NCBI RefSeq assembly: GCF_037975245.1
Contig: NC_092576.1
Coordinates: 26,799,611-26,863,610, forward strand
Direction: 5' to 3'
Origin: Apostichopus japonicus
Lineage: Eukaryota > Echinodermata > Holothuroidea > Aspidochirotida > Stichopodidae
Length of the DNA stretch: 64,000 bases
Part shown: in pieces, positions 46,996 through 61,798 of the stretch
Layout of the letters: every line of letters starts with the position of its first letter
Position numbering within the stretch: position 1 is the stretch's first letter
The notes under the pieces: model-generated
Seen by the model: only the letters and a program-made list of their open reading frames with translations
Databases searched by the model: none
What the model was told of the DNA's origin: nothing
Translations under genes and position numbers: made by a program

Positions 46996-47100
46996 TCAAG
47001 CTTCGCTCTGTGCATCGTCAATTCTTAACATTTCAAGCATGTCTGTTAACAGCAAAGTTGATTCTTCTAGATGGAGCTTCAACAATGCATCAACGAGTAC
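46996..47100 (-). CDS. Death-domain gene, last exon and stop
   Basis: 105 bp after acceptor TTTTTTTTCGTTGAAG: VLVDALLKLHLEESTLLLTD then MLEMLRIDDAQSEA and TGA. Supplies helix 6 of the death domain, completing AT...LVDAL..L.LE. Fits in phase with the preceding exon. Confidence 0.82.
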   Translation of the reverse strand, partial: VLVDALLKLHLEESTLLLTDMLEMLRIDDAQSEA

Positions 47101-50100
47101 CTTCAACGAAAAAAAAATTAGTGAAATCATATGAAAGCAAATAAACCAATGTTACTTTTAAAAGTAACAACATTGAACATCATATTTAACGAAATAATTC
47201 TGTAAAGTGTTTTCGCATGGGAGAGAGGATTAAAAGGCTTTATGATTTCTCAGCTTAAAATAGGTTTGTGCAACCATTTCCTCCATTTGATTTCTAATAT
47301 AATATACATTGCAGTTGTTCCATGCGTAAACAAATGGAATTCTGTAATCCATTGAACATACCCCGACAGTTGCGTTTCTTCCATTTCTCTCATGCCAAAG
47401 ATCCAACAGTTTTGCCGTTTTATCGATAACGTTGTCGTCTCTCGTTTCGATCTGAAGTCGCAGGTTTTTTGGAACTTTTAGAAGTTTGCCAAACTCATCC
47501 CGTTTTTCATCCACCAAGTGCTCTGCTATGCATTGGTGTAAAGCTGGCGTTGTGACGCACTGTAAAAGTGGTTAAGAATTGATGTCCTACTTTTAGTCTC
47601 CCACTTTTAATAGAAGAGTTCCAAGTGAACCGATCTGTGATATTAGTACGTCGTTTGTAGATTACAAGGAGTCACACAGTACTTTATTTGATAGCCTAGC
47701 GATGCTACAGCGTATATAACCCAATATCTGGTAAATTTTCTTTGTGCACAAATTCTTCTTCCCGAGATTGAGTCACAGAACCTGTCTAATCCCCGCCCCC
47801 CCCCTCCAAATGCAGTTTCCTGTTTTGGGTGACAAGATTGGTTCAAACTAAGTGACGGAATTAACATAATCAAATGTCACAAATATTGCATACAAGCAAT
47901 AAGAATAATTTATATCAATTGGTCAGAAGGATCTGGTTCGTAATGTTTAAGAACTTCCACCAATTGTATTCTGTAGAGTATTACCTTATAAACGGCTTCA
48001 CATTGACAAAATACCAAGGAACATTTTTAAGGTCTGTAGCAACTTGGAGTGAGACTAAAATTATGTTCATACATACTCACGTATTCATATAGAACGACTT
48101 GGGATTGCTGAGGAAAACAATTCACAGACTTAATTAATGAAATTGCTCTTAAGAAATATATAAACTGACAGGGTTTTAGTCAATGATATGAATGTTGTAA
48201 TCTATCTGAAGGTTCAGCATGTTTTAAAAAGTAGTTGGTATTTGTACTTTTTTAAGAAGCTACTTTTCTGCTATTACTTCACGCACTGAAAATTGGCTCT
48301 CGAGAAGACGATATTGTTTAACTGTGATATCTCACAAACTATACTTTGCATTGTGTTAGATTAGATTAACTGAGATATTGAGCGATATTTAGACAAATGA
48401 TTTGGTTTACACAAACTATGGTTTCATGAAGCAAGTATGAATAGTAGGTAATTAAAATCAAAAAGGTGGTTAGGTTCGTTCCCCCGTTAATGTAATTGTG
48501 CCAGAATTGTGTGAGATATTAAGCGGTATTTAGACAAATGGACACTTGGATTAAACAAACTTGTTACTTTGTCGAGCAAAGATTTCCTTCCAGTCAAATC
48601 ATGAGAAACTCTTTAAACACCAACTACAGTGTATGGAGACAATTTTTGTTGTTGGAATTTTCCATTAATTTTGAAGTTAACATACCCATAATCATCTTCG
48701 AAAACCTACTATAACCCCCTCAAAAAACGACCACGAAAATGGACATTTTGGGTTATCATGTGACATGTACCGCTGGAATGTCTAAAAACAGAGATTGACC
48801 CAAAGGAGCCTCTGGTCACCGTGTGACGTCTTCTTTGGTGTACCGCGCAAATCAAACGCTGAAATAGGTACCGTTCATACACAGATAGCGAACAATTGTA
48901 CTGTATTTGACTTCCAATTTCGAGCGTTTGAAAAGCTGTTAGCTTAAAGGAGCATTTTGCGACCTTTTCTATGATTATTCTCAACCTCACTGACTCCACT
49001 TTGCCATAACGACATACAAAAGCAGCTTATCTTTTTTAATCTTACTTCAAATGGTGGCATAATAGACAAAAAATTTACAACTTTGTTTTTCTCCAAGATA
49101 TTTTACGTTGGGATCCCAATAAACCTAGCCCATAATACGAATATTTAAACACTACGAACGTCATTGACCAATACGTAATATAACACCATGCTTGATTTGT
49201 GTACAGTCTATATGGCAGTTGTACCAGGGAGTTCCATAACAACTCCCTGGTTGTACCAACGCAAGGTCTTGAATCCATTTTTACAATTTGATCGCAAGAT
49301 ACCGCAAATTGAACAGAAGAATAGACCTAAAAGATGCCTCATGCGTGATATGTCACGGGAGATGGTTTACGTTGCTGTCAACAAATAACCCCCAAAACAC
49401 TAAACCCGAATCGACCAGGGTATAACACATACATGACTTAGCTTCAGCTGAACATAGACTTACTCGTTTTAATAGTAATATAAAGTAATATCGTTGATGT
49501 GTTTGGCAGCTCAGGTATACAAGTATACAACTATTGTTGTGAGTGCGGTGTAGCAAAGATGACGTCACATTATCACCTGATGTCTTAGGAATGTTTTAGG
49601 AATGTCTGAAATAGGTTTCCAAAAAAGATGACTTCTCTACCCATTTTTCACGCATTTAACGTCCGAAATTGGTAAAGTTAATTACAGCAATGCAATTGGA
49701 GTGAGCTAAGGATTACATACATGCAAAATGGTGGGATTTTATGTTCATCACAAAGTCTCCATAGTTGACCTTTGTATATATTTCTTTCTTAGTTAAATTA
49801 CCCAAAAAATTGGAGAATTTCTGCAGAAGTAGGGAATGTACCCATAAAGATGGTAAAGATAATCGTTACTGTGTTAGGTCTTTCACCCCACTCCAGTCCC
49901 ACATCATGTATTAAAATCAGGAATATTTTTTTACGGCTGAACGAAAACTACTTTACATAACAATTCAGTTTAGAGAGGACATCCTCATAATATTCGTATT
50001 CCATGACTATATCTTACCAGACTTTCGACTTCTCCATCTTCGGCATTCCCACTAGGTTGATGGTCATCTTCTTCCACTATCTGAGTGTGTAAATTTTATT

Positions 50101-53100
50101 AGGATGTGTTAAATGGTGAGGAATATCATTTCAACCAATGAGCGACAGTCATCCATTAATTATAGTTTTATACACGGTGGCATCTCTGGGTTATATAAAA
50201 TACTTTCGATCCTATTCGTTTCCAAGTCGGCTTGATAAATATACGAAATACATAAGTAAATTAAATGCATTGTAACGAATTCTTCAAATACATTCAATTT
50301 GGTTTTCTGTATAGAAACGTGAAGTAAAAAGGAGATTTTACTCCATAACTCCCAGATATTAACATTATGATAATCCATTTATTTTTGAAGAGTTAATGCA
50401 GTATTTTTCGTTGCTTTTGAGAAATCGTCGATACGACACACTAAACATTTAACTAACTACTGCAAGAATTTTTTTTTTTAAACATAGAATGAATTGTTCT
50501 TTCCGCGACAAAATCTAATGAGATGTCATAGTTTGATATATATGAATATTAATTTGAGCAACACCAGGAAGATTTGTTACATGTTTCATAAAGTGACACA
50601 AAAAGCCCTTTTGTAAATTACAAACATCATGTATTCCAACATATAGCCTATCCTTATTTGTAACTGATATCAATTGAAAAAGGAAAACGATTAGCAGAAA
50701 TTCCCTACCTCTTGGTAGGGGTCGTCTGTGTAATGGATTGGTTCATACGAAGTGCTCCTTTTGGGTAGGAGAGGTTTTTCATTCTGCTTACAATAAGAAA
50801 AGATATTATTGAAAGTTATCAACATTGTACTGTTAATGTGCTTGTTTCTTAAGTATGTTCTCACAGCAACTTATTTTACATGATTAAAAAAACACATTCA
50901 TTTGACGAGCAAGGTAAAATTATTATGATGTGTGGAACATCGAGGAATAGCAATTCAATCAATGAGCGACAGTCATCCAGCAAGAAAATCGTACCCATCA
51001 AATGGGTCAAGACAGACCGGTACTGTGTTTCCAAACAGAACACACACGAGCACACCCACATTTTGATATGTTCATCGAAAAGTCTCCATATTTGACCTTT
51101 AAATATATTTCTTAGTTAAATTACCCAAAAATCTCGAGAATTTTTTCACAAGAAGGGGAACGTTCCCACAAAGTGGGTAAAGATAAACCGTTACTGTGTT
51201 GGGTCTTTCACCTCACTCCCACATCATATATTAAAATCAGGAATATTTTTTTTTACGGCTGAACGAAAACTACATTACATTAACAATTACATTTAAAGAG
51301 GACATCCTCATAATATCCGTATTCCATGACTATATCTTACCAGACTTTCGACTTCTCCATCTTCGGCTTTCCCACTAGGTTGATTGTCAACTTCTTCTAC
51401 TAACTGTGTGTGTAAATTTATAATGATGTGTGGAACAGTGAGGAATAGCATTTCAATCAATGAGCGACAGTCATCTACCAGTTAGTTTTATACACGGTGG
51501 CATCTCTTGGTTATGTAAAATACTTTCGATCCTATTCGTTTCCAAGTAGGCTTAATAAATATACGAAATACATATGTAAATTAAATGCATGGTAACGAAT
51601 TCTTCAAAGTACATTCAATTTGATTTTCTGTATAGAAATGTGAAGTAAAAAGGAGATTTAACTTCATAACCCCCATATATTAACATTATGATATTCCATT
51701 TATTTATTAAGAATTAATGCAGTATTTTCCGTTGCTTTAGAACTATTGCACGAAATATTTTTTAAACAACGAATGAATGTTCTTTCCGCGACAAAATCTG
51801 ATGAGATGTCATAGTTTGATATATATATGAATATTAATTTGAGCAACACCCTTTGTCACAAAGTTTACCGTGATGTAGGGGTCTTCTGTGTAATGGATTG
51901 GTTCATACGAAGTGCTCCTTTTGGGTAGGAGAGGTTTTTCATTCTGCTTACAATAAGAAAAGATATTATTGAAAGTTATCAACATTGTACTGTTAATGTG
52001 CTTGTTTCTTAAGTATGTTCTCACAGCAACTTATTTTACATGATTAAAAAAACACATTCATTTGACGAGCAAGGTAAAATTATTATGATGTGTGGAACAT
52101 CGAGGAATAGCAATTCAATCAATGAGCGACAGTCATCCAGCAAGAAAATCGTACCCATCAAATGGGTCAAGACAGACCGGTACTGTGTTTCCAAACAGAA
52201 CACACACGAGCACACCCACATTTTGATATGTTCATCGAAAAGTCTCCATATTTGACCTTTAAATATATTTCTTAGTTAAATTACCCAAAAATCTCGAGAA
52301 TTTTTTCACAAGAAGGGGAACGTTCCCACAAAGTGGGTAAAGATAAACCGTTACTGTGTTGGGTCTTTCACCTCACTCCCACATCATATATTAAAATCAG
52401 GAATATTTTTTTTTACGGCTGAACGAAAACTACATTACATTAACAATTACATTTAAAGAGGACATCCTCATAATATCCGTATTCCATGACTATATCTTAC
52501 CAGACTTTCGACTTCTCCATCTTCGGCTTTCCCACTAGGTTGATTGTCAACTTCTTCTACTAACTGTGTGTGTAAATTTATAATGATGTGTGGAACAGTG
52601 AGGAATAGCATTTCAATCAATGAGCGACAGTCATCTACCAGTTAGTTTTATACACGGTGGCATCTCTGGGTTATGTAAAATACTTTCGATCCTATTCGTT
52701 TCCAAGTAGGCTTAATAAATATACGAAATACATATGTAAATTAAATGCATGGTAACGAATTCTTCAAAGTACATTCAATTTGATTTTCTGTATAGAAATG
52801 TGAAGTAAAAAGGAGATTTAACTTCATAACCCCCATATATTAACATTATGATATTCCATTTATTTATTAAGAATTAATGCAGTATTTTCCGTTGCTTTAG
52901 AACTACTGCACGAAATATTTTTTAAACAACGAATGAATGTTCTTTCCGCGACAAAATCTGATGAGATGTCATAGTTTGATATATATATGAATATTAATTT
53001 GAGCAACACCCTTTGTCACAAAGTTTACCGTGATGTAGGGGTCTTCTGTGTAATGGATTGGTTCATACGAAGTGCTCCTTTTGGGTAGGAGAGGTTTTTC

Positions 53101-53788
53101 ATTCTGCTTACAATAAGAAAAGATATTATTGAAAGTTATCAACATTGTACTGTTAATGTGCTTGTTTCTTAAGTATGTTCTCACAGCAACTTATTTTACA
53201 TGATTAAAAAAACACATTCATTTGACGAGCAAGGTAAAATTATTATGATGTGTGGAACATCGAGGAATAGCAATTCAATCAATGAGCGACAGTCATCCAG
53301 CAGGCATCAAATGGGTCAAGACAGACCGGTAAAAACACACACGCGCATACCCACATTGTGATTTTAATTATTTATTGAGAACTAATTCAGTATTTTCCGT
53401 TGCTTATGCTAATTTGTCGATATGATACACACCTAATTTAACTAAGATTTGATAACAATTATCAAAAACCGACACAAAATTACTTACAACATGCATGATT
53501 ATAAATGTCCACATTTGTCATTGAGATTAATTGTAAAAGATAAGAAAAACGATTAGCGAAAATGCCCTACCTCGGTAGGAGTGTTTTCTGTGGAATCCAA
53601 ATTTTTTGAAAGTTTCTTTTTGAAAGTTATTAATATTGTACTTTTGATATAATTGTTTTTAAAGTTTGTTCTCAGCCATCTTTAAAATTTAAATCACTTT
53701 TAAATGGAAAATAATGTAGAACAGATACGATCAGAGAATAAAAATAACACTAACAGTATACTACATTAGTTTCTTGTTAATAATTAGT

Positions 53789-53833
<45 letters not shown>

Positions 53834-56800
53834 ATTAAGGGCCGGATGAATGTAATGAGGTGAACTTATTGAGAGGCAAGAAAATATGAATCGTGTTTTC
53901 TTTCTCTCGAGAGAAAACGCTGCATCGGTATACGTTTACGGTAACACAACGTTGGAGCATAATGGTAGTGAAATGGAAACACAATTGATTAACGATCTGA
54001 GCATTGCAAGTTCTATTCCTGGTCAGATCATGTTTTGTCTATTGGTAAAGCACTAGATCGTCATTGCTCCTCTTCTGCGAGGTAACCAGTGAATATAAGT
54101 TCTGTGCCTTATACAAAGTTTCAAGCTATGGGAAGTTCCCAAGATCTGCTGGTGCACTGAAGTGCCCCGGGAATTGTATGTGCGTGAGATTGCACAAGTA
54201 AACATACCAGTTGTCAACCGTTCTAAATTCGTAAGAGAAGCTATGTATTAATGTTTGTAGGTATACGTTAAGTTTTCAAAGGAAATTTACTTACACTTCT
54301 TTGTAACATTTTCTAAAACTCTACATGATTTGAAATGTTTCCAATAACTTGTGTGATTAGTAAACAGTGTTCACCACATTTAAGTTTCTTTCTTCACGAT
54401 GAGCCATTTTATAACATTTAATGCAACATACACGACGCAATACTTTGTAGTATATGCGTTGACGGTATTCAATACCTATCTTGCAATCCATTACGGACCA
54501 TTTGAAATGCTATGGAAATACACATTGTTCACTAAGACATTACTGTTGACCTGAATTGGCATGAAGGGGATGCCCCATCTTCGCACCAGCCAGTATTGCA
54601 AAATATAAGTCTTTATTGCTTGGCATGAGCACTGAAGCGGCAACGTATGCCTTTGTTGTTGTTCATTGCTCTATTTGAGTTTTTTTATTTTCACTTATTG
54701 TTCACAATCCTTTGGCAAGTGAAAACCTTACAGTGTTATAGTTTGATGATAACGATGCCGTTGTTCGTAGGACTTGGGCCTTTAACTAGTTCTTCATTTT
54801 AGAAATACAAATACAAATCACGAAGTATCTATCACACCTTAATACCATGCTATTAGAGGAACATGGAGTTTCAGTTAACTGAAAATGATATAATTGATAA
54901 AATATCCTTTGTAGTGTACTTGTAGAAAGACAGTGAACCATAGCAACAGATGACCACACATTCCAAACATATTATAGTACTTATGAGTGTCAATGAACTC
55001 TTAAAGCCGCCATTGCAAATGTCTTTCTGTCTGGTGCTCTGCTTTACGGCAGGTCTACTCATGGGTTTGTCAGTCTTAAGTTGAAACGATCTTGGGAAAG
55101 CCCTTTCATCTTATGATAGCTCCTGCCCCCTAGTTTAAATCATCCAACAATGGATTTTTGCTTCGTCCTGCGCTCTACCCATATATATGTCCCACCCAAG
55201 TCTAAACCTTAATTATATTCCTATCCTCTTCGACTTAGCATTTCTTCATTGCTCTTATGATGTCTCCGGTTTGCTTTAATCGTCTTTCTCCAGACACACA
55301 GTTTTAATTGTCTACGGCTTGGAACCATACAGCACCACACTCTAATTCTAATTCATATCCCTTCTTTCATCAGACTCAAGGCAAGTTTGCTCATTAGTAC
55401 AATTCTTTCTTACGTAACGGACTCTTTGTCCATAGCAATGCTACTTGTACTTTTCTTATTGCAATCTCAATCCTTAGTTTAACCTAGTATATACATACGG
55501 TATATTGTGCAAATTTCCCGAATGGCTTAAGCATCTATAGCAAGTTACAGGTTATGATTCCTTAATAGTGGCTAAATGTCCGTTAACGTGCATGATATTT
55601 CAGGACTTTTGTTATGTATAGATGTATCCAGAGCCTGGCTCCAGATTACCTTACTGATTATACAATTCTACTGAGAGATAGCCGTTCGTACAGAACTAGA
55701 TCTAGCTGTTCTAATAATATTTTACTTGCTCCTATTATATCTGGGAATGGTAAAAGGACTTTTAAATTTTCTGGAGGCAGGTCGTGGAGCAGTCTTCCCC
55801 TTCATTTGAAATGCTTGCCAAAGGTTAATATTTTTAAACGCAATATGACAACTTATATATTTTGTTTACATGTCTGACATTTGCTTGTCTATCCTTTTGC
55901 CGTCCTTTCTGTGCTTTTGGATGTTTACCGTTTTTCTACTTACTGCATACTATTGTTTAGGTCATTTGTATTGAGGGGCTCTTCTGGTAAGCAGTGCTCC
56001 TGCACTGAGCAGGACTACCCTCATTAAAGATGACAATAAAAAAATAAATAATAAAAAAAAACCATATGTGATAATGCAATTGCCATTTACGCGACGGCAT
56101 GTAGAGTGACACTGCGTTTGCATAGTCATTATACGAAAGAAAATATTCGGAGCATTTTTTTTTTATCCCAAATTTGTTTCAACAAAGAAAACTAGTTTTG
56201 TAACCCCAATATTTTTTGTGGAGACGTCCGTCGGAGCATATAGAGACGTCCGTCGGAGCATATAGATACGTCCGTCGGAGCATATAGATACGTCCGTCGG
56301 AACGCGGAGACGTCCGTCGGAACGCGGAGACGTCCGTCGGAACGCGGAGACGTCCGTCGGAACGCGGAGACGTCCGTCGGAACGCGGAGACGTCCGTCGG
56401 AACGCGGAGACGTCCGTCGGAACGCGGAGACGTCCGTCGGAACGCGGAGACGTCCGTCGGAACGCGGAGACGTCCGTCGGAACGCGGAGACGTCCGTCGG
56501 AACGCGGAGACGTCCGTCGGAGCATATAGAGACGTCCGTCGGAACATATAGAGACGTCCGTCGGAACATATAGACGTCCGTCGGAACATATAGAGACGTA
56601 CGTCGGAACATAGAGACGTACGTTGGAACATAGAGACGTACGTCGGAACATAGGGAAGCACGTCTGAAAATAGAGAAGTCTGAACATAGAGATGTAACCA
56701 TACCCACCGGCGTCCGGCGCTGCCTGTTTTGTTATATACCAGTTGGCAGGCAATCCTGGAGTCGGTGAAGTGTGAAATTGGCCTTCAGATTGAAGGCGAT

Positions 56801-59800
56801 TTTCACACAGGTTGAAGGCGATTTTCTGCCGTTTATCTGGGGCCGCCTTTTTGGGGCGCTGGTTTGTCTCTGCTGGTCGGTGGGCGTTTTTACATTTTTG
56901 GCTGTCTTGACTTGAGTTTTCTTTGTCAGAGTGGGCTGGTTGGGTAGTACCGTCTGGCCGTGACGTTTTGGATCCCGTAGGGCGGGTCAAGTAAAAAGTA
57001 CATTGCACGTTGAAGGTGTGTATTATATGTTCCAAGAAGCCACACAGCTTTACGGATATTCGCTGTACATAGATATACATTAGCGTCCGGGATTGACAGC
57101 TCAAGATGTCCGTCAACGGGATTGAGAAAAAGCGACTCGCCCATTGAGGCAGCTTGATATGGTATTAATAGAACTAACTAAAGTGACAAATGGAACATGT
57201 TTATATTTGGATAGAAGATATAGTGTAGTATATAGCAATGTCGATATATTATGGGGGGAAAAAAACCCTTTGCGTGTGACATATACCTTGCATCCCTGGA
57301 ATTTATCTTACCGGATTTTCCCCCTGTTCCGTTCTCTCAATAAATACCGGTTCTTCGTAACCAACTTCGGTTCCAGGGGTTTCAGACTGTGGATGCAGAA
57401 TTGCTATAAAAAGTATGTCTATGCGGCAATAGTTATACATGATCTAACGACGAAATATTCTGAAAATAAGTACACATTCTCCAAACATAGAAATCACATC
57501 TCAAGTTCACTTGCCAGTTATAATGCATTATTCATGAATCCTAACAGAAAATAACCCCCCTCCCCCCCAAAAAAAAAATCCCATTATAGACACACTTTAA
57601 GGGCAGGACGTTTCTGAACTAAAATATGCAACACGTCATGTCGATAGATACTTAAAGAACGGTTACATTTCTTACATCACAGTGGCAAATGCGCAAATGG
57701 AAGGAGGTGGGGCATTACATCTTCAGTCGAGGGTTAAAAGTTTAAAATTAGAACGCTGCTCCTGACCCATGAGGCACTTCCACTGAGCTTCACGCCGCTA
57801 GCTAAATTAACTGGTGAGATCTAGAATCCCCCCTCCACACCCACACAATCTGTTGCATGCACATAAGCAACATACCAGCCCTTCAACCGTTCCCATAGGC
57901 CTGTCATATCCGGAATCATCGTTTCCTTGGTTGTCATCCCTTTCCCATGCGATATATACATCGTCTTCGCTCCATTCGTGATCATCTTTGTCTTCTGTCT
58001 GTGGTTATAGAAGTAGTAAATTACTGGTGTAGATCGTGTAAGTAATACGTCTGTATTATCATACCAAATATATATATTATTATCATACCAAATATATATT
58101 TAACTTACATTGAATTATTGGAAGTTAGCCTGGTAAAATTGTATTGGTTCACTCGATATATATTATAAACGATTTCTTCATTTAGGCATGTTTCTAGAGA
58201 GAATTGTGAATAGATGATATAATATCATGTCGGAAGCCAGAGAAAATGTCCTCGATTTAGTCGATGGTATGGCAGATGTTGTTTCTAAATGCTTTAGTTA
58301 CTTTAGTCTTCTTGTTGATGTATCCGTGCAATATTTGCTAAGCGGACAGTGATATTCTATTTGTTTCACAATGCAACTGTATTTTAGAAATATGATTTCC
58401 TAAATGCAAAAATCCTTTAAATGTAATGAATTAAACATATTTTGTGAACAGTGCCATTATAACAACACTGACTTTTTTGTTGCCAGAATTACACAAATGT
58501 GCATAATTCATTCATAGAAAGAGAAAAATGCTGCCAGATATTTGTTTGGACGGAGGTAGAAGACAGTAAATAGCAATAATGTTCAGCAACGAACTTGAGC
58601 CATGGGAATACCCCTTTTCACAGAAAGAGAACCTGCCGATTTGCTAAACAGGAAAGGGATGCTTGCCATGTACCAAATTAGTTCGCAATATACAGTACCG
58701 TCAATGTAAATATTCATAACAATGGGAGCAAAAAATTAATCGTTCAAATTTTTGTAAAACTCATCTAAGATTACAATACTTTAAATTACTGTCGATCAAT
58801 TTAAAATATCTTGAGCAAGGTATATCCGCCGTTTTGTGTCGGCAAGGGTCTATAGTGTGATGCCTGAACCTACATAAGTGATAGAGGAAACACATGGTGT
58901 ATCATAAATCACTGAAACCGCAATTTACCATACAGTAAGTAGTTGTGAGTTCATACATCGCCAAGGTCAACTGATGGTATAACTGATTTGTGGGCAGATC
59001 ACATGGATATTAAGAAGTGAAGACCTTAACAATTCAAATTTTTCCAAAACAGTATCTTGTCTTCACTTCATATGAGGGATAGTTACAAATATGCTGCTAG
59101 ACCATATAAATAATATCGGTGTTATTTTGGTTTAGCTTAATAAAGCTTTATTAAGGTTTAGCTCAGATGAGAAGTTGGTGAACATCAACTCGTAAATACG
59201 AAATCTCAAGAACCATGAATGTGACACTGTGCAAGTCCATGACCCACTGATCTTCCCTATCGTTTTGGTATAGAACATGTAGAACATGCATACAGAAGAG
59301 TGGACAGCACTTGAAGCCGAAAAAATAAATTCCAAATTTCTCAAAAACAGTAACTTTTCTTCAACACGAAATCTCATGTTATATGATATATATATATATA
59401 TAGAAATATATAAATATATATATAAATATATTTATATATATAATATATGTATGTATATAAAATATATATGTGTATATAATATATGTGTATATAACATATA
59501 TCTGTATGATATATACATGTTTGATCTATATGAGATATATGTAACATATATATATATATATACTTATGATATATATGAGATATATATAACATATGTATGA
59601 ATAGAAACATGGTTAACTAGATTGCCTACCCTTTCCGTCAAGTTTAGACTCGCATAATATGCTTCTTCTCTCTTCTTTTCCAACGGTTGAACTTCGAGGT
59701 AAAGGTCCTCTTCGTTTCCATTCTTAAAACAAAATATATCCTAGATCAGCTTTTTGTCCTCATGGAAAGTATAAAGTTTTCTCGATGTGCCTTCCACATA

Positions 59801-61798
59801 TTCTTCTTTAACTAGCTTAGTCTGTATCACTAATAATGTGAAATTTACTCTAAATTTAATAAGAGTTTTGGGTTATAACGTGTCTGTTACTTATAGGACA
59901 TACACAAGTAACAGACGCCTGTAAGCAGACAACGGAAATATCCGAAAACCTTTAAACCACGTAACTGGCAGAGTATTTTCAACAATTCTAAACGTGATTT
60001 GATTACTTCTAACTATGAAATTTCGCCTCTGTGATATGATTATTCACCACACAAGAAAATGAACGGAAACACATGTAACGATAAGACGAATAAAACAACG
60101 CTATCAATAAGATCTAGTAAGACTTAATACATATTCATGTATTATTTTTTGATGACTAATTCCAATCTAAATCATTTCAACTTCAAACACGCCCCGTTTC
60201 TACTTTCAGAATGAATTATTCACCTACCTTTGTATGTCCTTCCGTTTCGCGATATGAGTCCAGAAGAACAGGTTGGCCATCCATTCCTTTCCATCCGAAC
60301 AACTCTCCGGTTGATTTGAACAACTGGCAGGTATGATTATTATAGACGGATTTCATCTTTATCACCATTCCGTCTCTGAGAATTAATCGAGGCTTTGTAA
60401 GATAACTCACAACGTTAGATGGGAAAACCTCTACGTTGTTTGTTTGTGTAATCCCCACAACATGATGTCCATGGATGTTTACCAAGGTGAGAATTATGTC
60501 ACCTTTATGTAATGTTACCTTTTCTTTCGGTTCAGACCAGTCTGTCTTAGCTACCGCATACCTGAGTGTCATTCCAGCACCTTCAAGACCTTTGTGGTCA
60601 CATAAATCAAACATTGCGCTAGGACATTCTTTCCGAAACCGTACATCTTTAAGTACAGCTACAGCCCCGTCTGTTTGCCTAAAAACGACAAAAACTCGTT
60701 TGCTTTTCAGTAAAATAGTTAACTTGTCTGTGCTTTTAATTTGAGATACTTCTCCCTCGTCTTTAAAATACACGGCTTTACTTAAATACTCCGACCCTAA
60801 AGAGAGAGAAAGAGGTAGAGAAAGAGGCGGAGAGAGAGACAGAAACGAGCTTCTGAAATTAAAGGTTTCATGTCGGTTTGCTTTGCAAACAGTCAAGAGA
60901 TAACAGTTTATTTATTATGAAATATGATAGGAAAAAAGACAACATAATTGAATGCGTATGCTCATGATATGATTTAATGGACATAATATTTTCTACTTGA
61001 CGATGTCAATGGATACTATTTGTTCCCTCATTTGTACTAAAATTTCCTTCTGATCTGCTAGAGATCTGAAGAGACTTAAATTAGGTATATGTCTTGTCTG
61101 ATTGTCCTCAGTTAGTGATAACATCATAGCGGTAGGAGTGATTACATGTGCCGGAATCTACAACTCAATAGGTCGTTTGTTTCAAATATATAGCGTAAAA
61201 TCAACACTTAGCTCACTTGGCGGAAGCTTTGGTGTAACCACAATATAGTTAGGAAGTAAACATCATGTCGACACAGCAGCATAAGCTAGAAGTATTATTC
61301 AGCCGAAAATACCAGCAAAGAGGAATTAACACTGAAAATATTATGGACGATGCAGGAGAAAACTAATAAAAAAAACAATTAACACACTGTATGCAACCTA
61401 AATAGACCAAATCAAGCGGTCGAGGGATTGGGGAACACGTAAAACGCTCCTCCCTGTGTTTTAGCTAAACTGAGAATTGAACCTTCACTGGTCAGGAAAT
61501 AAATACTGTAAGAAAGAGAGCCAAAGATGGGGTTTAACACAAGGTATAAAGACATACAAAAGGACGTACACAAACAGACATACATTTTGTTCTAAAGAGT
61601 GTAAAACAGGATGATGGGAGAGAAACAGAAATAAAACAAATTCCAGCTAATTAAAAACCTAAAATTCTCATAATAATATTTCCCATCTACTTGCAGGTTA
61701 TTATGATGTACAAGCTTATGATACTCCTTACTTGACCACGGGATTTGTCTTGCGTTCTTCGATTTTGTGGAACGGATATTACCCCCTCCGGCTGCCAT
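46996..61798 (-). CDS. Death-domain scaffold/adaptor with repeated tyrosine-rich exon pair (12 coding exons)
   Basis: Assembled from splice sites and phase: 61732-61798, 60228-60796, 59630-59722, 57876-57998, 53029-53103, 52501-52563, 51869-51943, 51341-51403, 50709-50783, 50018-50080, 47362-47559, 46996-47100; 1569 nt, 522 aa and a stop. All junctions after exon 1 (phase 1) are phase 0. Order: basic N-terminus (MAAGGGNIRSTKSKNARQ); beta-rich domain with an SH3-like stretch; acidic tyrosine-bearing exons; C-terminal death domain (TAKLLDLWHERNGRNATVG joined to VLVDALLKLHLEESTLLLTD). Death domains mediate homotypic assembly of signalling complexes; tyrosine motifs such as DLYLEV and YYASLNL look like SH2 docking sites. 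A cytoplasmic immune or apoptosis adaptor is the likeliest role, by inference. I do not recognise an orthologue; a CABIT/THEMIS-like reading of exon 2 was considered but not established. An upstream in-frame ATG at 61834 would add 12 residues. Repeated exons may be alternatively spliced. Confidence 0.75.
47362..47559 (-). CDS. Death-domain gene, penultimate exon (death domain helices 1-5)
   Basis: 198 bp, acceptor CTTTTACAG, donor GTATGT, phase 0-0. CVTTPALHQCIAEHLVDEKR, then DEFGKLLKVPKNLRLQIETR, then DDNVIDKTAKLLDLWHERNG, RNATVG. The pattern L......W.......AT is the core of a death domain; the W of LDLWHERNG is the conserved core tryptophan. Confidence 0.85.
50018..50080 (-). CDS. Death-domain gene, type-A exon copy 1
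   Basis: 63 bp, acceptor ACACACTCAG, donor GTAAGA, phase 0-0: IVEEDDHQPSGNAEDGEVES then L. Differs from copies 2 and 3 at four residues while keeping the frame, which argues for selection. Confidence 0.72.
50709..50783 (-). CDS. Death-domain gene, type-B exon copy 1
   Basis: 75 bp, acceptor TTGTAAGCAG, donor GAG/GTAGGG, phase 0-0: NEKPLLPKRSTSYEPIHYTD then DPYQE. The best-preserved splice signals of the type-B set. Confidence 0.72.
51341..51403 (-). CDS. Death-domain gene, type-A exon copy 2
   Basis: 63 bp: LVEEVDNQPSGKAEDGEVES then L, acceptor CACACACAG, donor GTAAGA, phase 0-0. Confidence 0.65.
51869..51943 (-). CDS. Death-domain gene, type-B exon copy 2
   Basis: 75 bp: NEKPLLPKRSTSYEPIHYTE then DPYIT, donor GTAAAC. 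Differs from the 50709-50783 copy only near the 3' end, where that copy has DDPYQE and a better donor (GTAGGG). If the weak donor fails, the frame reads on into VNFVTKGVAQ. Confidence 0.6.
52501..52563 (-). CDS. Death-domain gene, type-A exon copy 3
   Basis: 63 bp, same as 51341-51403: LVEEVDNQPSGKAEDGEVES then L. Acceptor CACACACAG, donor GTAAGA. Phase 0-0. Confidence 0.65.
53029..53103 (-). CDS. Death-domain gene, type-B exon copy 3
   Basis: 75 bp, identical to 51869-51943 as far as I can read: NEKPLLPKRSTSYEPIHYTE then DPYIT. Acceptor GTAAGCAG, weaker donor GTAAAC. Phase 0-0. Three tyrosines in 25 residues. Confidence 0.6.
53565..53600 (-). pseudogene. Remnant of a type-B exon
   Basis: Minus strand keeps CACTCCTACCGAG/GTAGGGCATTTTCGC, matching the end of exon B and its intron at 50700-50720 (CCTACCAAGAG/GTAGGGAATTTCTGC). 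The first half is gone, so it is not a usable exon. Confidence 0.5.
53792..53833. repeat. (AT)n(TG)n microsatellite
   Basis: About 14 AT followed by 7 TG dinucleotides. Confidence 0.95.
55560..56060 (+). mobile_element. LINE 3' end (RT C-terminus and 3' UTR), in an intron of the death-domain gene
   Basis: Frame 55614-55877: QSLAPDYLTDY, then RSYRTRSS, GKRTFKFSGGRSWSSLPLHL and VNIFKRNMTTYIF. This is the classic CR1/L2-like C-terminal signature (LAP.YL.D ... R..F......WN.LP..L ... FK). It is followed by a 3' UTR with AGCAGTGCTCCTGCACTGAGC and an ATTAAAGATGACAATAAAA end. Antisense to the host gene. 5' truncated. Confidence 0.85.
56217..56700. repeat. 20/22-bp minisatellite with 11 identical core copies
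   Basis: The 20-mer GAGACGTCCGTCGGAACGCG is repeated perfectly 11 times (one register: 56301-56520). Both sides have 22-bp variants with AGCATATA or AACATATA in place of AACGCG, and further right the units decay (CGTACGTCGGAACATAGAGA). All three minus frames are open across it, giving predicted proteins up to 317 aa that I regard as artefacts. Confidence 0.97.
56738..57003. repeat. Dispersed 300-bp repeat, copy 2
   Basis: Same family and orientation as 42530-42860. It starts immediately right of the minisatellite and lacks the TATAAAAG extension. TTGAAGGCGATTTTC is duplicated inside it. Confidence 0.6.
57876..57998 (-). CDS. Death-domain gene, exon 4 (type A-like, acidic)
   Basis: 123 bp, 41 residues, phase 0-0, acceptor AACCACAG, donor GTATGT. 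Very acidic: TEDKDDHEWSEDDVYIAW then ERDDNQGNDDSGYDRP, ending GTVEGL. The ending matches the type A exons (GEVESL), so those look like shortened copies of this exon. Confidence 0.75.
59385..59605. repeat. TA-rich low-complexity tract
   Basis: Runs of (TA)n with TATATATG variants. Open frames of I/Y residues on both strands are meaningless. Confidence 0.9.
59630..59722 (-). CDS. Death-domain gene, exon 3 (type B-like, tyrosine motifs)
   Basis: 93 bp, 31 residues, phase 0 on both sides. Contains EEDLYLEVQPLEKKREEA and YYASLNLTER, two acidic-flanked tyrosines with hydrophobic +3 residues, an ITAM-like layout though with wider spacing than the canonical 6-8. The donor GTAGGC is moderate. Confidence 0.7.
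60228..60796 (-). CDS. Death-domain gene, exon 2: beta-rich domain with SH3-like segment
   Basis: 569 bp; the acceptor follows a long CT tract (TCTCTCTCTTTAG) and the donor is a strong AAG/GTAGGTG. 189 residues. The stretch VTLHKGDIILTLVNIHGHHV with VEVFPSNVVSYL resembles an SH3 fold (L.KGD.I ... G ... FPSNYV). Other beta-like parts: KLTILLKSKRVFVVFRQ and RLILRDGMVIKMKSV. The CT tract upstream translates to a SLSPPLSLPLSL run if the intron is ignored. Confidence 0.85.
61732..61798 (-). CDS. Death-domain gene, coding exon 1
   Basis: 67 nt: MAAGGGNIRSTKSKNARQ then IPWS, phase 1 donor GTAAGG. The next exon opens with two bases that complete an R codon, so phases agree. ATG context AAAATATGG has A at -3. 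Basic and low in structure. Confidence 0.7.

Follow-up and report, generated by a model that had tools for sequence, protein, structure and literature searches.

Parts of the gene described here have counterparts in several known signalling systems. FADD, MyD88 and ankyrin possess a C-terminal death domain. In BCAP and BANK1, an interaction domain of innate signalling is coupled to a linker that carries docking motifs with tyrosines; these proteins include DBB, TIR-like and ankyrin parts. In GAREM and THEMIS, an N-terminal beta domain (CABIT) precedes tyrosine and proline motifs, and receptors of the CD3 zeta type carry three times the immunoreceptor tyrosine-based activation motif (ITAM), whose consensus is Yxx[LI]-x6-8-Yxx[LI]. 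Death-domain sets of echinoderms are large, and little of their wiring has been described. We analysed a 64,000-nucleotide stretch of the sea cucumber Apostichopus japonicus genome (the window; NCBI RefSeq assembly GCF_037975245.1, contig NC_092576.1, forward-strand positions 26,799,611 to 26,863,610) and found on its minus strand a chain of exons, running from position 61798 to 46996 of the window with AG/GT splice sites and a single open frame throughout, which joins a death domain to a linker of short tyrosine exons.

The encoded protein shares the C-terminal death domain with FADD, MyD88 and ankyrin (Pfam; profile matches to ankyrin and FADD), but the Pfam scan of the window model yields no DED, TIR, ankyrin or ZU5 domain, their place being taken by a different N-terminal domain and the tyrosine linker. 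In its likely manner of working it resembles BCAP and BANK1, with which we compare it by layout, not homology; where these have DBB, TIR-like and ankyrin parts, the window model has a death domain. With GAREM and THEMIS it shares an N-terminal beta domain followed by tyrosine and proline motifs, although neither Pfam nor hhalign found their CABIT domain in the model. The motif of CD3 zeta also occurs three times, with the difference that here it is joined to a death domain and split by the intron between two exon types, B and A. Among titles and opening lines of abstracts in the open-access literature, no protein combining a death domain with this layout was found. Since the genome holds a large death-domain set, one more architecture built around this domain would in itself be no surprise; it is the exon-pair ITAM layout that would surprise.

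In our preferred reading, to which we assign a probability of about one half, the gene encodes a cytosolic adaptor in which a beta-rich N-terminal domain (SH3-like in its second half) is followed by an acidic linker made up of tyrosine exons, with the death domain at the C terminus and the B-A pairs docking tandem-SH2 proteins. Layout, family, copy-number differences and motif can be read directly from the genome, and a role of the linker in tunable ITAM docking is plausible.

The best evidence that the N-terminal and the death domain belong to one gene comes from its relatives. In the searched genome (671.58 Mb in 35 contigs, the window lying on the 46.04-Mb contig C16), relatives of exon 2 (60228-60796, on the minus strand like all exons of the model; 189 whole codons for the N-terminal domain) were found at eight loci. 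These are the window gene itself (P1, minus strand), its sisters P2 (C16:26.878 M, plus strand), P3 (C16:27.644 M, minus strand) and P4 (C16:27.662 M, plus strand), the distant members D1 (C16:24.14 M) and D2 (C1:4.79 M), D3 with its exon-2 domain at C13:15.44 M (region C13:15434000-15443500), and D4 (C1:15 kb, region C1:13000-22500), which is closely similar to D2 and has two TGA stops in exon 2. Exon DD1 (47362-47559), encoding the first part of the death domain, has relatives at seven loci (P1-P4, D1, D2 and D4; the next match had E 0.33), and at all seven the exon-2 domain lies upstream of it, with strand and order unchanged. This supports a single gene for the N-terminal and the death domain, as the first-pass annotation of this stretch had supposed when it joined them. 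The last exon, DD2 (46996-47100), encoding the end of the death domain and the stop codon, accompanies DD1 at six of the seven loci, where it always has an AG acceptor and reaches a stop within 300 bases. The D4 region examined ends too early to include it. At D3, a search with E up to 10 detected no DD1 of this type, either nearby or elsewhere on C13, which does not prove its absence; the exon-2 domain may pair there with another partner. D4 is a probable pseudogene, yet the peptide of its proline-rich exon is unchanged.

Within P2-P4, exons 1, 2, 4, B, A, a 9-codon exon, DD1 and DD2 share order, phases and splice sites with the window gene, including the acceptor and phase-0 donor of DD1 and the acceptor and stop of DD2 (the latter two also in D1 and D2). 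P1/P2 and P3/P4 form two head-to-head pairs about 784 kb apart. Pooled intron distances are 0.108 for P1-P3, 0.063 for P2-P4, 0.085 for P2-P3, 0.087 for P3-P4, 0.128 for P1-P2 and 0.132 for P1-P4, P3 being closer to P2 and P4 than to P1; pair sums (0.171 versus 0.215 and 0.217) favour a split of P1 and P3 from P2 and P4, which fits duplication of a pair. Exon 2, DD1 and DD2 contain no stop in any of the four genes, whereas 2000 runs of a neutral simulation, which omits the internal branch of the tree, averaged 5.2 stops, with 0.4% of the runs free of them. Taken together, these loci appear to form a small, expanded sea cucumber family of death-domain adaptors with a fast-changing, copy-variable tyrosine linker.

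The death domain, predicted earlier as a two-exon C-terminal domain with a stop, is recognized as such by Pfam: DD1 and DD2 together match Death (PF00531) with E 3e-7 and 30.9 bits, above the curated cut-off of 22.6. A six-member profile (six of the seven loci, D4 omitted) matched ankyrin (E 0.0014) and FADD (E 0.022) in PDB. The Pfam Death search of the whole genome scored 150 matches out of 204 candidates; it also gave matches below the cut-off in two of 14 control genomes, and its rows do not include the split domain of P1. Contig C12 has the most Death rows of any contig and possibly houses a cluster of death-domain genes.

Between exon 2 and the death domain, three B exons alternate with three A exons: B1 (53029-53103, NEKPLLPKRSTSYEPIHYTEDPYIT), A1 (52501-52563, LVEEVDNQPSGKAEDGEVESL), B2 (51869-51943, peptide identical to B1), A2 (51341-51403, peptide identical to A1), B3 (50709-50783, ending in DDPYQE and having a different donor, gtaggg) and A3 (50018-50080, IVEEDDHQPSGNAEDGEVESL). 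Across the junctions, P1 reads YEPI-HYTEDP-YIT/L or YEPI-HYTDDP-YQE/I (the slash marks the splice), that is Yxx[LI]-x6-Yxx[LI]. The final position of the motif is encoded by the first codon of exon A, the first L of A1 completing YITL and the first I of A3 completing YQEI. The whole ITAM pattern occurs in B1-A1, B2-A2 (the same peptide) and B3-A3 of P1 and in B3-A of P3; when residues of the 46-amino-acid unit were shuffled (20,000 runs), it arose in 0.40% and 0.25% of runs for P1 and in 0.04% for P3 B3-A, percentages to be read in the light of the fact that the test was made after the motif had been noticed and that other motifs were examined too. Because A supplies this final residue, joins between B exons give YITN, YQEN or YSEN and no ITAM; the working unit would therefore be B together with A rather than B by itself. 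The B exons of P1 also contain PLLPKR, a PxxPxR motif. A GRDP_C row of Pfam on B1-A1 (E 0.0045) lay below its cut-off and was set aside.

Copy number of the tyrosine exons varies among the sister genes, as had been anticipated: P1, P2, P3 and P4 have 3, 1, 3 and 3 B exons and 3, 1, 1 and 1 A exons, respectively (a further exon, B0, being excluded from the count). The B-A pair was accordingly multiplied in P1, while P3 and P4 carry additional B exons alone. In a tree, P3_B1 groups with P4_B1 (support 0.997), so some B copies predate that split. P1 has two 1160-bp tandem units (50715-53034) that carry B-A copies; they show 3 mismatches in 1160 and are hence recent or homogenised. A HiFi assembly of A. 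japonicus is described as having 671.60 Mb, 34 scaffolds and chromosomes of 18.21-46.02 Mb (PMC10344927); given HiFi data of this kind, an assembly error is a less likely source of the near-identical units.

All exons from exon 3 through the last splice are in phase 0-0, which upholds the earlier description of the internal exons as symmetric. Exons 3 and 4 had also been regarded as ancestors of B and A. For exon 3 (59630-59722, a tyrosine exon with EEDLYLEV and YYASL) the likeness to B is borderline: shuffling gave p 0.05-0.08, and at the DNA level, flanks included, 5 of 200 shuffles did as well. Exon 4 (57876-57998, acidic, with two tyrosines, found in P1-P4) gained no support as ancestor of A (shuffle p 0.26-0.42; DNA equalled by 61 of 200 shuffles). 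Candidate short phase-0 tyrosine exons recur in the distant members, namely PRQGARNGDTEDTYADIYEPNL (read by eye) and QATPLIETSSSVDYSGYEVV (splice-site scan) in D2 and GSDSNENVDANEYEVPDEGYINIRSL (splice-site scan) in D1, for whose exons there is no second copy to check against. A proline-rich candidate exon encodes an identical peptide in D2 and D4, an agreement that is mostly uninformative because the two are 85-95% identical in DNA. In its P1 version, exon 3 is similar to the first D2 exon (p 0.0005 by shuffling), but the P3 version gives only p 0.12. The symmetric tyrosine-exon linker may thus be an old trait of the family, with the exons that fill it changing quickly.

Exon 2 probably encodes an all-beta domain and looks like one that Pfam does not yet hold. 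Scanning of seven members produced just two Pfam rows (E 0.19) and no match, NCBIfam gave just two chance-like rows, and one scan of viral contigs revealed no close relatives. An SH3-like exon had been proposed; nothing in Pfam speaks for it, and what stands, with marginal support, is an SH3-like second half of the domain. A seven-member profile (seven of the eight loci, D4 omitted) retrieved from PDB, at E up to 10, eight rows, seven of them SH3 chains (best E 0.074), and all SH3 rows cover roughly positions 81-143 of the profile, where it reads GDIIL...FPSNVV. Alignment by hhalign to three SH3 domain sequences gave P 1.5e-4 and probability 51, compared with P 0.14 for the best of 20 column shuffles and P 0.17 for the reversed control. 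The suggestion of a CABIT domain had to be dropped: Pfam scans of the model and of the exon-2 members contained no CABIT, and hhalign against a GAREM domain gave P 0.087, a score bettered by 2 of 20 shuffles. A CABIT search of the genome was silent in all 14 controls as well and is uninformative.

The mechanism we envisage is as follows. The death domain would join a death-domain complex at a receptor or adaptor, and Src-family kinases would phosphorylate tyrosines of the linker. A phosphorylated B-A pair, YxxI-x6-Yxx[L/I], would then recruit a protein with tandem SH2 domains, for example Syk, and B-A copy number would determine how many docking sites there are; the doubly phosphorylated B-A peptide YEPIHYTEDPYITL is the predicted ligand for a Syk-type tandem SH2. 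The kinases reported from the egg transcriptome of a sea star include Syk (PMC11593052). The most far-reaching version, in which a soluble multi-ITAM adaptor wires Syk-type signalling into death-domain complexes and exon-pair copies set the ITAM number, each copy needing B-to-A splicing, we consider unlikely as it stands. If it were true, one protein would link tyrosine-kinase with death-domain signalling, and the sister genes would offer a natural series on how ITAM number sets signal strength.

Rates of change bear on how far the linker is under constraint. Nonsynonymous differences per site in exon 2 amount to 0.33-0.65 of those in pooled introns in all six pairs among the four P genes (each p<0.04; the pairs are not mutually independent), with a ratio of nonsynonymous to synonymous rates (dN/dS) of 0.43-1.06, and differences in the death domain amount to 0.51-1.11 of introns. 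For the B exon the values are 1.6-2.3 of pooled introns, with p<0.02 in five of six pairs; P1-P3 and P2-P4, the two that are independent of each other, give p 0.0023 and p 0.27, respectively. Pooled introns exclude flanks at least 25% different, which are the flank downstream of B for P1-P3 and that downstream of exon 4 in four other pairs; none was excluded for P2-P4. B therefore appears to change about as fast as introns or faster.

A competing explanation accepts the death-domain adaptor but takes its middle for a fast-evolving disordered spacer, in which tyrosine motifs are incidental and copy number reflects drift of tandem repeats. We regard it as the main rival, possible though somewhat doubtful. 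It draws support from local comparison, since B is not clearly faster than its own flanks (p<0.05 in two of eight pairs; in the other six p exceeds 0.05, and in one of these the exon is slower), from the absence of the whole motif in P2 and P4, and from the decay of exon 3 and B0 in the sisters. Yet the B exons are free of indels in those eight pairs while their flanks have 2-7 gap events (another alignment placed a 57-column gap at the exon in one of 36 B pairs), and candidate tyrosine exons recur in D1 and D2. Changes in B are also mostly nonsynonymous, though about 80% of its sites are nonsynonymous anyway.

Several of these observations, together with others, weigh against the tandem-SH2-docking adaptor that we prefer. 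The pattern test did not find the whole ITAM in B-A of P2, B3-A of P4 or B1-B2 of P3, so that two of the four close genes miss it; Yxx[ILV] was counted not at all in P2 B-A and once in P4 B3-A, and B1 and B2 of P4 are without tyrosine. Exon 3 is intact only in P1 of the four genes: it is interrupted by stops in P2 and P4, and its 3' end has been replaced in P3. B0 (57312-57386, 25 codons, one tyrosine) is damaged in all three sisters, by loss of both frame and donor in P2, of its AG acceptor in P3 and of its donor in P4. A B exon faster than neutral, or positive selection on it, is suggestive only. As to the folded parts, each SH3 match of exon 2 is marginal, and in the alignment the residues of the SH3 ligand pocket, ALYDY and WW, are not found, there being no ALYDY and HH replacing WW; a single-sequence structure model of exon 2 was poor (predicted local distance difference test, pLDDT, 36) and was not used. 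In PDB, the death-domain profile ranked HP0242-derived knotted designs (E 1e-5 and 5e-5) above ankyrin and FADD; although they came first, we set them aside as chance helical matches.

It is improbable, in our judgement, that the adaptor is inhibitory, its TSYEPI acting as an immunoreceptor tyrosine-based switch motif (ITSM)-like element through which the linker recruits an SHP-type phosphatase and damps death-domain signalling. T-x-Y-x-x-I, the ITSM consensus, is indeed present in every B exon of P1 and in two of three of P3, but a second tyrosine is kept at ITAM spacing in P1 and P3, which an ITSM does not need. Least probable of all is that the B and A exons are dead or unspliced, the model a computer assembly and the window copy a pseudogene: a frame-breaking B-like remnant lies at 53571-53587 and dN/dS of exon 2 plus death domain between P1 and its sisters is 0.71-1.12, but open frames, splice sites and phases are kept in four genes where the neutral simulation expects 5.2 stops, and exon 2 changes less than introns.

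The corrected model of the docking adaptor has 14 exons and 556 amino acids. Without the 9-codon exon it measures 547 amino acids, and without the 25 codons of B0 as well 522 amino acids in 12 exons, apparently the model of the first-pass annotation, which had listed 12 phase-compatible minus-strand exons; all 12 stand as candidates, with the exon-1 donor moved and two exons added that were probably missed. Exon 1 (61732-61798, MAAGGGNIRSTKSKNARQIPWS) was given the donor at 61732 (AA/gtaagg, phase 1) because exon 2 is out of frame with the later GT; its ATG context and donor are alike in all four P genes, as are the splice sites of exon 2. Of the two added exons, the 9-codon one (48081-48107, QSQVVLYEY) has a gtgagt donor in all four, and the use of B0 in the transcript is uncertain.

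At 53571-53587 on the minus strand, an acceptor, 17 nucleotides resembling the 3' end of B and then gtaggg were recognized by eye; this copy looks dead, since 17 nucleotides would break the frame. The B0-B1 intron contains an open frame on the plus strand (55596-55877), which may encode the C terminus of a reverse transcriptase from a non-LTR retrotransposon, and a 20-bp tandem array of about 20 copies (56221-56650). Elsewhere in the assembly, the whole mitochondrial cox1 profile was matched on C35:40-1380 and pieces of it on C29:14745-31219, which points either to a copy in the nucleus or to another mitochondrial contig that is broken. Mitochondrial cox1 reads with genetic code 9 (echinoderms, flatworms), in support of an echinoderm origin, AAA encoding Asn at sites regarded as invariant.

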